A program made the position numbers and the translations under genes. From Sabulicella rubraurantiaca (GTDB taxonomy: Bacteria > Pseudomonadota > Alphaproteobacteria > Acetobacterales > Acetobacteraceae), in contig NZ_JAFEUU010000011.1 in assembly GCF_017355885.1 (NCBI RefSeq), positions 62,001-126,000 on the forward strand: a DNA stretch of 64,000 nucleotides, given 5' to 3'. The notes under the pieces were generated by a model. That model did no database searches. It saw nothing but the letters and a program-made list of their open reading frames with translations, and was not told the DNA's origin. Positions 57,003 through 62,041 of the stretch are shown piece after piece; position 1 is the stretch's first letter, and every line of letters begins with the position of its first letter.

Positions 57003-57989
57003 TCAGGCGACGCCGGCGCGCAGGAGGTCATGGACGTGGAGGATGCCGACCGGCGCGCCCGCCGCGTCCACGACGAAGAGCGCGGTCACCTTGTTGTCGT
57101 TCATCAGGCGCAGCGCCTCGGCGGCCAGCGCGTCCGGCCGCACGGTGCGGGGCGAGCCAGACATGACCTCGCCTGCCTCCAGCGACAGCAAGGCGCCCGA
57201 GCGCGCCTCCAGCGTGCGGCGCAGATCGCCGTCGGTGATGACGCCGGCGAGGCGCCCGTCCCGCACCACGCCGACGCAGCCGAAGCGGCCGCCCGTCATG
57301 GTGATGAGCGCCTGGTCCATTCGTGTCTCCGGCGCGACCAGCGGCAGCTCCGATGCGGGGTGCATCAGCTCATGCACGTGGGAAAGCTGGGCGCCCAGCC
57401 GCCCACCCGGATGGAAGACGCCGAAATCCGCCGCGGTGAAGCCGCGCCGGTGCAGCAGCGCCACGGCCAGCGCATCGCCCAGCGCCAGCTGCATGGTGGT
57501 GGAGGTGGTGGGAGCGAGGCCCATCGGGCAGGCCTCCTTCACCGGCGGCAGCAGCAGCGCCACGTCGGCGGCGCGCGCCAGGGCGGATCCCGCGCCGGAG
57601 GTGATGGCGATCAGCGGGATGGCGAAGCGGCGCGTATGCGCGACCAGGGCCGACAGCTCGGCCGTGTTGCCGGAGTTGGAAAGCGCCAGCACCGCGTCGC
57701 CGCGCACGATCATGCCGAGGTCGCCATGGCTCGCCTCGCCCGGGTGGACGAAATGCGAGGGCGTGCCGGTGGAGGCGAAGGTGGCGGCGATCTTGCGCCC
57801 GACATGGCCGGACTTGCCCATGCCGGAAACGATGACGCGGCCGGAAACCTCGGCCAGCAGCGAAAGGGCTTGGCCAAAGGAGGCATCGAGGGAGGCAGCC
57901 AGCGCCGCGAGCCCCTCCGCCTCCGTCAGGATGACCTGACGGCCCAGCTCCTCGGGCACGTCATCCCGGACCGCACGCGCGCTGCTCAT
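57003..57989 (-). CDS. kdsD: Arabinose-5-phosphate isomerase KdsD (SIS + CBS domains)
   Basis: Interconverts ribulose-5-phosphate and arabinose-5-phosphate, the first committed step to Kdo. The 328-residue protein has an SIS domain (VIVSGMGKSGHVGRKIAATF, ASTGTPSHFVHPGEASHGDL) and two C-terminal CBS repeats (the second ending GAPVGILHVHDLLRAGVA). A ribosome binding site AGGAA precedes ATG 57989; the upstream open frame to 58082 is a shadow. First gene of the Kdo operon; the 125-base gap to the divergent nth gene should hold its promoter. Confidence 0.94.
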   Translation of the reverse strand: MSSARAVRDDVPEELGRQVILTEAEGLAALAASLDASFGQALSLLAEVSGRVIVSGMGKSGHVGRKIAATFASTGTPSHFVHPGEASHGDLGMIVRGDAVLALSNSGNTAELSALVAHTRRFAIPLIAITSGAGSALARAADVALLLPPVKEACPMGLAPTTSTTMQLALGDALAVALLHRRGFTAADFGVFHPGGRLGAQLSHVHELMHPASELPLVAPETRMDQALITMTGGRFGCVGVVRDGRLAGVITDGDLRRTLEARSGALLSLEAGEVMSGSPRTVRPDALAAEALRLMNDNKVTALFVVDAAGAPVGILHVHDLLRAGVA

Positions 57990-58114: not shown

Positions 58115-58789
58115 ATGTCCGCCGCCGCCAAGCAGCCCTTCGACTTCGACGAGGCCTTCCGACGCCTGCGCGAGGCCGTGGCGGGCGTGCCCAAGGCCGC
58201 CATGTTCGAGATGCGCGACCGTGGCTACAGCTCCCTGTTCGAGCAGCTTGTCGCCAGCCTGATCTCCGCCCGCACCCGCGACGAGACGACCATCCCGGTC
58301 TCGCTTCGCCTCTTCGAGGCCGCCCGCACGCCGGAGGCGATGGCGGCGCTGGACGAGGCGACGATCACCCGCCTGTTGTTCGGCGCCACCTTCCCCGAGC
58401 CCAAGGCGCGCGACATCCTCACCCTGTCGCGCCGCATCGTGGAGGAGCATGGCGGCGTTGTGCCCGACACGCCGGAAGGGCTGATGTCGTTTCGTGGCGT
58501 CGGGTCGAAGATCGCTTCGCTCGCGCTCGGCGTCGCGCTGAACCGGCCGCTGATTGCCGTGGACATCCACGTCCATCGCATCACCAATCGCTGGGGCATT
58601 GTCGCCACCTCCACCCCCGAGCGCACCCAGGCCGCGCTGGAGAAGGTGCTGCCCGAGCGCTACTGGGTGGAGATCAATGAGAGGCTGGTTCCCTTCGGGA
58701 AGCATGTCTGCACTGGGGAGCGCCCGCGCTGCTCCACCTGCCCGCTGGTCGCCATGTGCCAGCAGGTGGGCGTCACCACGCATCGCTGA
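58115..58789 (+). CDS. nth: Endonuclease III (bifunctional DNA glycosylase/AP lyase)
   Basis: Removes oxidised pyrimidines and cleaves at abasic sites. The 224-residue protein has the HhH motif FRGVGSKIASLALG with the catalytic Lys, the catalytic Asp in IAVDIHVHRITNRWG, and a C-terminal 4Fe-4S cluster Cys199-X6-Cys206-X2-Cys209-X5-Cys215. This spacing is that of Nth rather than the shorter AlkA-like enzymes; the family also includes MutY, but the MutY-specific C-terminal domain is absent. Confidence 0.94.
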   Translation: MSAAAKQPFDFDEAFRRLREAVAGVPKAAMFEMRDRGYSSLFEQLVASLISARTRDETTIPVSLRLFEAARTPEAMAALDEATITRLLFGATFPEPKARDILTLSRRIVEEHGGVVPDTPEGLMSFRGVGSKIASLALGVALNRPLIAVDIHVHRITNRWGIVATSTPERTQAALEKVLPERYWVEINERLVPFGKHVCTGERPRCSTCPLVAMCQQVGVTTHR

Positions 58790-58799
58790 GGGGGCGGAG

Positions 58800-59678
58800 T
58801 CACAGGCTAAAGGCGACGCGACCCAGTTCCTCCACCGCATAGCCGCCCATGCGAGCCGCCCGCACCGCGAAGCTCTGGCCCCGCGCGAAGCCAAGCAGCG
58901 TCTGAATGGAGGGGGCGAAAAAATGGCGGTGCGCCATCACCAGGTCGAAGCGCTCTCGCACCAGCGGCACGAATTCGAGGCCGCGCGCCGAGGCTTCCGC
59001 ACGGATGCCGAAGCCCGCGTCGGCGCGGCCCTCGGCGACGGCGGCGGCTACCTCGTCCTCGGCCAGGGCGGGGTCGGGGAGGAAACCGACCTGATCGAGC
59101 CGGACTCCCGCCTCCGTCAGCAAGTGGGTCAGCAGCACGTGGCTGCCGGCCCGGTTCTGGCGCCCCATCACCCGCGTTCCCGGCCGGGCGAGATCCGCCG
59201 CCGTGGCGAGGCTGAGGGGATTGCCGGGCGGCAGGATCAGCCCCTGCTCCCGCCAGGCCCAGGTGATGCCGACCACGCCGCGCCCCGGCATCGCCTCGCG
59301 AACGGCCGGTTCGTTCCAGGCGCCGGTATCGGGATCGGGCAGGTGCATCGCAGTGGCCATCGCCTCGCCCGCAGCCAGGGCCGCGATGCCGCCCAGGCTG
59401 CCCACCGACCGCAAGGCCAAGCCGCACCCCGATTGCCGCACCGCCCAGTCCAGCAGCGGATCATGGCTTCCCGCCAGGATCGGAGGTGGTTCCCTGACGA
59501 GCACTCCCGGCCACTCGGCCTGCGCGCTCAGCCACTGGGCCAGGAGGTCACGCGGAAAGAGCCACTTGCCCCCTAGTTGAACCGAAGGCACGCGGCGGCG
59601 ACGCGCGAGGTCATACAGCGCGCGCTCGGACAGGCGCAGGAACGCGGCAGCCTCGCGCAGTGTCAGGACATCCGGCAT
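58800..59678 (-). CDS. Regulator with excisionase-type HTH and periplasmic-binding-like sensor domain (tup regulator)
   Basis: A 292-residue cytoplasmic protein (no signal peptide). Residues 1-52 form a helix-turn-helix of the excisionase/MerR type: LTLREAAAFLRLSERALYDL and VPSVQLGGKWLFPRDLLAQW. From about residue 70 it has a PBP-like substrate-binding domain (ILAGSHDPLLDWAVRQSG, SVGSLGGIAALAAGEAMATA, GRQNRAGSHVLLTHLLTEAG), as in PF12727-type sensor proteins. It is divergent from the tungstate transporter, with an inverted repeat between. I infer that it binds tungstate or molybdate and controls tup. Confidence 0.8.
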   Translation of the reverse strand: MPDVLTLREAAAFLRLSERALYDLARRRRVPSVQLGGKWLFPRDLLAQWLSAQAEWPGVLVREPPPILAGSHDPLLDWAVRQSGCGLALRSVGSLGGIAALAAGEAMATAMHLPDPDTGAWNEPAVREAMPGRGVVGITWAWREQGLILPPGNPLSLATAADLARPGTRVMGRQNRAGSHVLLTHLLTEAGVRLDQVGFLPDPALAEDEVAAAVAEGRADAGFGIRAEASARGLEFVPLVRERFDLVMAHRHFFAPSIQTLLGFARGQSFAVRAARMGGYAVEELGRVAFSL

Positions 59679-59706
59679 GGACCGGCAAAATCCGGCAGAT
59701 GCTGGA

Positions 59707-59738
59707 AGAGGGTCAAGCCGCTTTCCGATTGACCCTCT
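59707..59738. promoter_or_regulatory. Perfect inverted repeat, probable operator of the tup locus
   Basis: AGAGGGTCAA at 59707-59716 and its exact reverse complement TTGACCCTCT at 59729-59738 are separated by 12 bases, 32 bases in all, with centres 22 bases apart (about two helical turns). Each arm also offers a TTGACC hexamer reading outward, towards tupB on the plus strand and towards the regulator on the minus strand, so it could double as two divergent -35 boxes. The -10 elements are poor on both sides. Confidence 0.75.
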
Positions 59739-59781
59739 CCGCCCGAGCGGCGACATCAATTCCGCAACGAAGGATACTTTC

Positions 59782-60486
59782 TTGGGCGACCTGCATGCCG
59801 CCAGCACCGCCGCGCTTGGGCTGATCCTTGCCGCCGATCCGGCGGTGATGGGCATCGTGGGACTGAGCCTGCAGGTGAGCCTGACGGCCGTGCTGCTGGC
59901 AGCGCTGGTCGGCTTGCCGCTCGGCGCGTTGCTGGCGGTTACGCGCTTCCCCGGGCGCCAGAGCGTGATCGTGGCGCTGAACGCGCTGATGGGGCTGCCG
60001 CCGGTCGTTGCCGGGCTTCTCATCTACCTGCTGCTGTCGCGCTCTGGTCCGCTCGGGCCGCTCGGCCTGCTGTTCACGCCGTCCGCCATGGTCATCGCCC
60101 AGGCCGTGCTGATCGCCCCCATCCTCGCCGCGCTAACGCGCGAGACGCTATCCGGGCTTTGGGAAGAATACGCGGAACAGCTTCGCTCCTTCGGCGCTGG
60201 GCCGCTGCGCGCGGTCCCCACCCTGCTCTGGGACGGGCGCTTCGCCCTGCTCACCGTGCTGCTCGCGGGCTTCGGCCGGGCGAGCGCGGAGGTGGGAGCG
60301 GTGATGATCGTCGGCGGCAACATCGAGGGCTTCACCCGCGTCATGACCACGGCCATCGCGCTGGAAACCAGCAAGGGCGACCTGCCGCTGGCCCTGGCGC
60401 TGGGCCTGGTGCTGATGGGAATCGTCCTCGCGGTGAACGTCCTGGCCCAGGTTCTGCGGAGCGCGGCGTCGCGCTGGGCCGGGTGA
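59782..60486 (+). CDS. tupB: Tungstate ABC transporter permease TupB
   Basis: Inner-membrane permease, 234 residues from TTG 59782, with about five membrane helices. It has the inner-membrane coupling loop LWEEYAEQLRSFGAGPLRAV and a late EVGAVMIVGGNIEGFTRVMT segment typical of TupB/WtpB-like permeases. An ATG at 59677 opens the same frame, but that stretch contains the inverted repeat and no membrane segment, while GAAGGA lies seven bases before the TTG, so I prefer the TTG. It overlaps tupC by one base (TGATG). Confidence 0.88.
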   Translation: MGDLHAASTAALGLILAADPAVMGIVGLSLQVSLTAVLLAALVGLPLGALLAVTRFPGRQSVIVALNALMGLPPVVAGLLIYLLLSRSGPLGPLGLLFTPSAMVIAQAVLIAPILAALTRETLSGLWEEYAEQLRSFGAGPLRAVPTLLWDGRFALLTVLLAGFGRASAEVGAVMIVGGNIEGFTRVMTTAIALETSKGDLPLALALGLVLMGIVLAVNVLAQVLRSAASRWAG

Positions 60487-61208
60487 TGCGGGCGCCGGAC
60501 ACCATCCTGCCGCTCTGCGTGGAAGCGCTGCGCTTTGCGGCGGGCGGCGTGGAGATCCTGCATGGCGTGTCCTTCACGCTCGAGGCCGGACCGCCGACCG
60601 TGGTGATCGGGCCGAACGGCGCCGGCAAGTCGGTGCTGTTGCGCCTGCTGCACGGGCTTCTCCCGCCCGGTGGCGGCGCGGTGCGCTGGGCCACGGCGCC
60701 GGATCGCAGCGCGCCGCGACAGGCCATGGTGTTCCAGCGCCCCGTGCTGCTGCGCCGCTCCGTCATGGCGAATGTCGCCTATCCGCTTGCCCTGGCCGGG
60801 ATCGGTCCGCGGGAACGTGCCCGGCGCGCCGAGGAGGCGCTGGATCTGGTCGGGCTGTCCGCGCTGGCGGACCGTCCGGCGCGCCGCCTTTCGGGAGGGG
60901 AGCAGCAACGCCTCGCCCTGGCGCGCGCCGCAGCGCTGGGGCCGGAGGTGCTGTTCCTGGACGAGCCCTGCGCCAGCCTCGACCCCTCCGCGACGCGGGC
61001 GGTGGAGGAGATCGTCGCCGCCCTGGCGCGGCGGGGCACCAAGATCGTCATGACCACGCACGATATTGGCCAGGCACGGCGCCTCGCCGGGGACGTGATC
61101 TTCCTGCACCGCGGCCGCGTGGTGGAGCGCGCACCGGCCGCGCGCTTCTTCGTCGCGCCCGAGACGCCCGAAGCCGCCGCCTTCCTTCAAGGAGAACTCG
61201 TATGGTGA
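60486..61208 (+). CDS. tupC: Tungstate ABC transporter ATPase TupC
   Basis: The energising ATPase, 240 residues. Walker A VVIGPNGAGKSVLLRLLHGL (about residue 37), Q-loop MVFQRPVLL, signature LSGGEQQRLALARA, Walker B VLFLDEPCASLDPSATRAVE and switch MTTHDIGQARRLAGDVIFL. The TupC-type MVFQRPVLLRRSV Q-loop region is characteristic of tungstate/molybdate-like ATPases, and the C-terminus lacks the TOBE domain found in ModC. Its 3' end overlaps tupA by seven bases. Confidence 0.93.
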   Translation: MRAPDTILPLCVEALRFAAGGVEILHGVSFTLEAGPPTVVIGPNGAGKSVLLRLLHGLLPPGGGAVRWATAPDRSAPRQAMVFQRPVLLRRSVMANVAYPLALAGIGPRERARRAEEALDLVGLSALADRPARRLSGGEQQRLALARAAALGPEVLFLDEPCASLDPSATRAVEEIVAALARRGTKIVMTTHDIGQARRLAGDVIFLHRGRVVERAPAARFFVAPETPEAAAFLQGELVW

Positions 61209-62041
61209 CCCTTCGCCGAGGCCTCCTGGCCATGGTTCCGGCGATGGCCGCCCGCGCCGCCTCCGCTCAAGAGCGCACGATCACCGTCGCCAGCACGACG
61301 AGCACGGAGCAGTCGGGTCTCTTCGGCCACATCCTGCCGCTCTTCACGCGCGAGACGGGCATCGTGGTGCGCGTGGTGGCGCTCGGCACCGGACAGGCGC
61401 TCGACGTGGGGCGGCGCGGCGATGCCGACGTGGTCTTCGTCCATGACCGCGAGGCGGAGGAGCGCTTCGTGGCCGAAGGCTTCGGCGGGCCGCGCCACCA
61501 CGTGATGTACAACGACTTCGTGCTGATTGGCCCTGCCGCCGATCCGGCGCGCATCGCCGGGCTTCGCAACATCACCGAGGCGATGCGCCGCATCGCCGAG
61601 GCCCGCGCGCGCTTCGTGAGCCGTGGCGACCGCAGCGGCACGCATGCGGCCGAGCTGCGCCTGTGGCAGCTGGCTGGCGTGGACCCGACGCAAGGTCGTG
61701 GGCAGTGGAACCGTGAGGTGGGCCAGGGCATGGGCCCGACGCTGAATGCCGCCGCCGCGCAGGGCGCCTATGTACTGGCCGATCGCGGCACCTGGCTCTC
61801 CTTCCGCAACCGGCAGGATCTGCGCATCCTGGCCGAGGGCGATGAGCGCCTGTTCAACCAGTATGGCGTCATGGTGGTGAGCGCGGCGCGCCACCCGCAC
61901 GTGAAGGCCGCCGAGGCGCGGCGCTTCGTGGAGTGGCTCACCTCGCCCACCGGGCAGACGGCGATTGCCGGCTACAGGGTCAAGGGCGAGCAACTCTTCT
62001 TCCCGAATGCCGACAGGCCGGAACCGGCGCGCCCCTCCTGA
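61202..62041 (+). CDS. tupA: Tungstate-binding periplasmic protein TupA
   Basis: Solute-binding protein, 279 residues, with a short basic signal (VTLRRGLLAMVPAMAARAAS, cleavage near ASA). The TupA hallmark VASTTSTEQSGLFGHILPLF sits right at the mature N-terminus, followed by DVVFVHDREAEERFVAEGFG, VMYNDFVLIGPAADPARI and VSRGDRSGTHAAELRLWQLA. ModA has a different N-terminal pattern, so tungstate rather than molybdate is the family ligand. Gene order here is tupB-tupC-tupA, with the binding protein last. Confidence 0.93.
   Translation: MVTLRRGLLAMVPAMAARAASAQERTITVASTTSTEQSGLFGHILPLFTRETGIVVRVVALGTGQALDVGRRGDADVVFVHDREAEERFVAEGFGGPRHHVMYNDFVLIGPAADPARIAGLRNITEAMRRIAEARARFVSRGDRSGTHAAELRLWQLAGVDPTQGRGQWNREVGQGMGPTLNAAAAQGAYVLADRGTWLSFRNRQDLRILAEGDERLFNQYGVMVVSAARHPHVKAAEARRFVEWLTSPTGQTAIAGYRVKGEQLFFPNADRPEPARPS

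Follow-up and report, generated by a model that had tools for sequence, protein, structure and literature searches.

In a 64,000-nucleotide stretch of the Sabulicella rubraurantiaca genome (contig NZ_JAFEUU010000011.1, positions 62,001 to 126,000; hereafter the window, numbered from its first letter), the gene for a regulator that joins a helix-turn-helix (HTH) domain to a periplasmic-binding-protein-like (PBP-like) domain is divergently transcribed from tupBCA, which encode a tungstate transporter. We conclude that the operator of this regulator is probably a tandem direct repeat at 59684–59703, not the perfect inverted repeat (dyad) in the same intergenic gap; the regulator would bind the tandem repeat head-to-tail, block its own promoter and tune the tup genes from upstream. 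The elements of the control region are as follows.

59684–59693, plus strand: predicted operator unit 1, GGCAAAATCC, from counts of GGCA pairs at spacing 10
59688–59693, minus strand: inferred −10 element of the regulator, GGATTT, with a 17-bp spacer and lying inside operator unit 1, from column counts
59694–59703, plus strand: predicted operator unit 2, GGCAGATGCT, from the same GGCA-pair counts and alignment columns
59704–59713, plus strand: third repeat unit in degenerate form, GGAAGAGGGT, with an intact form in relatives such as L009, L010, L025 and L032
59707–59738, no strand assigned: perfect 10-bp dyad, AGAGGGTCAA (59707–59716), 12 nucleotides, TTGACCCTCT (59729–59738)
59711–59716, minus strand: regulator −35 box TTGACC, the inner left dyad arm, with the start codon at a fixed distance in 23 loci
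59729–59734, plus strand: tup −35 box TTGACC, the inner right dyad arm, from a 27-locus alignment and its retention in genomes that lack the regulator
59752–59757, plus strand: inferred tup −10 element GACATC, from column counts, a weak match in this genome

To compare this gap with its counterparts, we searched 299 genomes of the family for the regulator; 35 of them, the window's own included, contain a strong match (E < 1e-114). Regulators at least 60% identical, taken from family genomes and named records, gave 55 usable upstream regions (L115, with an empty gap, was left out), and 47 of these, with pairwise identities below 85%, form the nonredundant set of close loci. When these gaps are lined up from the regulator start, two GGCA units appear 10 bp apart, and the conserved element, GGCAaAatCC GGCAaAtgct in the window, lies between the dyad and the regulator start. 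In 41 of the 47 close loci two exact GGCA units stand at spacing 10, against an average of 0.37 and a maximum of 3 in shuffled sequences; spacing 20 occurs in 8 loci and any other spacing from 4 to 19 in none to two. In a motif-anchored alignment, 34 of 47 loci place the first unit 5 nucleotides away from the start codon, and the GGCA columns reach 1.45–2.39 bits, values that are inflated because anchoring on GGCA makes these column scores circular. The pair counts are independent of the anchoring, as is a motif-free autocorrelation, which peaks at lag 10 (seven loci).

The array follows the regulator from genome to genome. Of the 34 other family genomes with the regulator, 25 were scanned with a strict array pattern, which yielded 29 matches versus 5 for a reversed control; 20 of the 25 genomes have at least one match, with 11 matches at the regulator start and 18 elsewhere. 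Among the ten of these 18 that were inspected, three precede tup genes on a contig other than that of the regulator: tupBCA in genome G095, tupBC in G166 and tupA by itself in G072. For the other seven inspected matches, inspection covered the sequence around the match. A fourth off-contig case, G186 (L265), was reached through its tupB. All four off-contig tup promoters contain the array and the right half of the dyad, with the array 45, 55, 44 and 35 bp from TTGAC, and GTCAA is absent between the two in every case. Nineteen family genomes have no regulator match (E ≤ 1e-30) and encode a tupB product 74–83% identical to that of the window; in the 200 nucleotides examined upstream of these genes, GGCA units at spacing 10 are absent from all 19, and TTGAC is kept in 16 of 19. 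Read in this way, the sequences suggest that the right core of the dyad is the basal tup promoter, the left core the promoter of the regulator and the array the regulator-dependent part. Some observations count against this assignment. Two regulator-bearing genomes have a tupB without the array (a second copy in G015, and G104, where the array instead sits between the regulator and tupC). Also, the array-bearing tup operon of G095, whose intact regulator is on contig C8, adjoins a short regulator-like remnant (C26:35160–35267; 58% identical over residues 198–233, with a stop), so this array may be left over from a divergent arrangement. The remnant and the two array-less tupB genes lower our confidence slightly.

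The position of the array relative to both promoters is constrained. In 27 aligned loci, TTGAC(G/C) is followed by a 17-bp spacer and then by C (24 loci), A (24) and T (21) at positions 1, 2 and 5 of the tup −10 element. On the other strand, in the 23 loci with both the repeat pair and GTCAA, the −10 position of the regulator falls within the first unit and the ATG follows about 10 nucleotides beyond it, so the regulator transcript may be nearly leaderless. At 45 of the 47 close loci a divergently oriented tup gene lies no more than 2.5 kb away; 40 of these have the repeat pair, with an exact TTGAC downstream in 27 and none in 13. In all 27 testable loci the distance from the array to the tup −35 box is 35, 36, 44, 45, 46 or 55 bp. 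The array of the window begins 45 bp upstream of this box; counted from the inferred tup start, it spans about −80 to −61. Among more distant gaps with both a pair and TTGAC, the distances are 44/34/24 in L037, L134 and L136, and 37/27/17 in L187 and L188. Because these loci are related sequences, the independent evidence for this geometry amounts to a handful of 10-bp steps.

The domains that the preliminary description of this DNA had named, an excisionase-type HTH and a PBP-like domain, were confirmed with Pfam: HTH_17 scores 47.6 bits and the PBP-like domain 184.4 bits (cut-off 27 for each), and both are present in 64 of 64 members of the regulator alignment. The protein is the sole PF12727 match found in the genome, and its best named relatives are mostly Acetobacteraceae records. 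By domains and linkage, it is a TaoR-type regulator. TaoR, which we take to be DVU3193 of Desulfovibrio vulgaris, was reportedly footprinted. The preliminary description knew of no characterised operator for this class; the class itself does have a characterised member. Passages of one paper present TaoR, with its HTH and PBP-like domains, as a characterised regulator of tungsten aldehyde oxidoreductase (PMC11980592), and passages of another, likewise citing Rajeev et al. 2019, give DVU3193 as tupR (PMC10102598). In the open PMC literature we found no description of an operator for the class, which may well be in print, and no Desulfovibrio locus is among the 80 named relatives kept. The window's regulator shares with the TaoR family the HTH_17 and PBP-like domains, linkage to tup and the regulation of tungstate uptake. 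It differs in that its genome, despite the tungstate transporter, has no match to AFOR_C (PF01314), the tungsten aldehyde oxidoreductase domain; other enzyme families were not searched.

Structure comparison places the winged HTH in the BldC/Xis fold class, with BldC, RdfS and Xis as the best matches; by sequence, the HTH retrieves no BldC chain at E ≤ 1, which counts nothing against a relationship. The PBP-like domain resembles ModA and PstS in fold, and also the effector domains of LysR proteins. Streptomyces BldC has 68 residues, no sensor domain and 9-bp repeats, AATTXXXX(C), in the relevant passages of PMC5859096; it resembles the present case in its direct repeats about one turn apart, although the period here is 10 bp and binding is a prediction. 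Xis and RdfS, like the window's regulator, have a Group 17 HTH; they form head-to-tail assemblies, as parts of PMC11963761 describe, but they act in recombination and have no ligand domain. ModE, a cytoplasmic molybdate- and tungstate-responsive regulator of oxyanion transport, as the window's regulator presumably is, has another HTH and another sensor domain, TOBE (PMC11980592, in part), and an operator consensus given in an excerpt of PMC2700814 as near-palindromic.

These characteristics suggest how the system could work. We propose that two or three winged-HTH domains assemble on the array in head-to-tail order, with one domain to each 10-bp turn of the helix, in the manner of BldC on its direct repeats. 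Because the array overlaps the inferred −10 element of the regulator, we expect binding to repress the regulator's own gene. Upstream of the tup −35 box and in fixed helical phase with it, the array occupies an activator-like position, from which the regulator may tune tupBCA transcription according to the oxyanion occupancy of its ModA-like domain; the ligand is presumably tungstate. Sequence comparison establishes the array, its 10-bp period, its link to the presence of the regulator, its register with the tup −35 box and the fold class of the HTH, whereas binding, the head-to-tail multimer, autorepression, the sign of action on tup and the ligand are predictions.

The preliminary description had instead proposed that the dyad is a dimer operator setting both promoters, and the dyad exists exactly as described, with 10-bp arms around 12 nucleotides in a 103-bp gap (59679–59781). 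Its exact motif occurs at a single place in the 5.02-Mb genome; in L026, arms counted in the same way are perfect over 9 bp. When the gap was shuffled 3000 times with dinucleotides preserved, a perfect inverted repeat (arms ≥ 10 bp, spacer 0–30) arose in 11 cases, and the 64-kb window contains 11 repeats of this kind, so the dyad is unusual for the gap and not exotic for the DNA of the window. Because the inner TTGAC boxes are promoter elements, only the outer five pairs need explaining, and arithmetic from base composition puts their chance occurrence at about 1 in 600. The test that the preliminary description had set for its own proposal, conservation of the dyad beside orthologous regulators, went against it: in the 47 close loci only the inner GTCAA facing TTGAC recurred (in 22 loci; right half only in 10, left half only in 4, neither in 11), with 12 bp between them in 13 loci, 13 bp in seven, 5 bp in one and 2 bp in one. 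With the window's locus excluded, the five positions outside the core are paired at 27%, against about 28% expected from base composition, and the outer arms carry almost no column information in the alignment. Of the 22 loci that retain both cores, only the window's own has full 10-bp arms; the nearest relative, with a regulator 89% identical, has arms of 6 bp. The halves are also lost separately. Where only the right half remains, tupB is divergent in 10 of 10 loci; where only the left −35 core remains (L011, L014, L016 and L023), this is so in 0 of 4, two having a divergent tupA with TTGCA or TTGCC in place of TTGAC and two having no divergent tup gene that we found. The retention of the right half without the regulator (16 of 19) and the absence of the left half from all four off-contig tup promoters with an array argue further against a dimer operator, which we consider extremely unlikely. 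The dyad is real and its outer half incidental; its inner halves behave as divergent −35 boxes, the role already given to the outward-facing TTGACC boxes. The idea that one element serves both genes survives in part: a local shared site is likely, and the dyad is not that site.

Two other readings retain the array and change its role. It could be a basal promoter element, either an extended −10 or an upstream element, as its overlap with the inferred −10 of the regulator might suggest. We find this very unlikely, given that the array is missing from all 19 upstream regions of regulator-less tupB genes, 16 of them with TTGAC, and accompanies four tup promoters that lie apart from the regulator. 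Alternatively, the tungstate-bound regulator may repress both promoters from the same operator, the multimer blocking its own promoter and spreading towards the tup −35 box. TaoR is said, in the 2019 work of Rajeev and colleagues, to repress tup in D. vulgaris; the array lies within 50 nucleotides of the tupB start in L165, L167 and L170; and passages of PMC5859096 report that BldC forms extending filaments, as Xis is described to do in parts of PMC11963761. However, a fixed phase of 35, 45 or 55 bp from the tup −35 box is more typical of activation, and in the close loci there is little conservation in the columns that separate the second unit from the left −35 core. We regard repression of both promoters as possible and somewhat doubtful, and we favour autorepression combined with tuning of tup from upstream.

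Similar repeats are present beyond the close relatives. Where regulators are less than 60% identical, 10 of 23 nonredundant regulator–tup gaps contain two [TG]GCA units at spacing 10 (0.60 expected), and additional pairs occur at spacing 20 (8) and 21 (7). Three in-period units are found in L037, L134 and L136. For L174, a Halomonas locus, a 60-nucleotide window was picked by hand, and the lag-10 autocorrelation peak stands in seven loci without it. At 59 loci with no divergent tup gene within 450 bp, the pair is found in 3 (0.79 expected), while upstream of tupB at such loci it is found in 5 of 12 usable regions (0.15 expected for all 15; L151, L159 and L162 were left out). L062, L149 and L172 were left out as too short. 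In L181, L183 and L184, from the same phylum and another class, TGCAT-type elements are irregularly spaced and were not counted as pairs; these gaps and those of L185 and L186 have TGCAT...TTTCA...TGCA-like elements in common, possibly a variant operator. With only slightly better than even confidence, we generalise that TaoR-type sensors act as BldC/Xis-like head-to-tail multimers on 10-bp repeats, phased to the tup promoter within lineages, in Alphaproteobacteria and at least one Halomonas.

Elsewhere in the window's genome, a search for a regulon beyond tup that tolerated one mismatch returned 86 matches versus 51 in a reversed control, and exact matches besides the array are at C47:77272 and C63:165281. 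The latter (C63:165281–165306; L068, about 1501–1526) consists of three GGCAAA-type repeats of 10 bp immediately before a ParD/ParE-like toxin-antitoxin pair; it is perhaps the operator of that pair, and we read it as unrelated to the tup regulon. The follow-up covered these exact matches, that at C47:77272 as far as a list of open reading frames.

The genes themselves have the divergent order that was originally described.

58800–59678, minus strand: TaoR-type regulator, 292 residues, HTH_17 (PF12728) at residues 4–53 and PBP-like domain (PF12727) at residues 81–265
59782–60486, plus strand: tupB, tungstate ABC transporter permease, TTG start, NF038017 above cut-off
60486–61208, plus strand: tupC, ABC transporter ATPase, by PF00005 and gene order
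61202–62041, plus strand: tupA, tungstate-binding protein, PF12849, with NF041772 (TupA) at 1.6e-63, below cut-off

For tupB, the NCBIfam model NF041773 (TupB) gives a match that is strong (1.7e-47) yet below cut-off, and a Pfam search found no match. The regulator start codon is the complement of 59676–59678. The tupB frame is open further upstream as far as an ATG at 59677, which overlaps the regulator start, but translation more likely begins at TTG 59782, preceded by AAGGA at 59770–59774. The neighbouring genes encode an SIS-CBS protein (57003–57989, minus strand) and an HhH-GPD endonuclease III-like protein (58115–58789, plus strand), with no evident link to tungsten. Among the seven same-genus genomes listed, the regulator and tupB are both present in G000, G248 and G278 and both absent from G044, G124, G175 and G216; perhaps they were gained or lost together.

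For a class of tungstate regulators, these results put forward a concrete operator candidate together with a candidate promoter layout; they also correct an attractive, misleading palindrome. They predict head-to-tail recognition of direct repeats by an excisionase-type HTH joined to a ligand sensor. The array can also help to locate tup genes controlled from elsewhere in the genome, and in three genomes the strict scan did so. If the proposed mechanism is correct, it would represent a one-component metal-oxyanion switch in which a ModA-like ligand domain sits on a nucleoprotein array and cooperative recognition of direct repeats replaces a palindrome.
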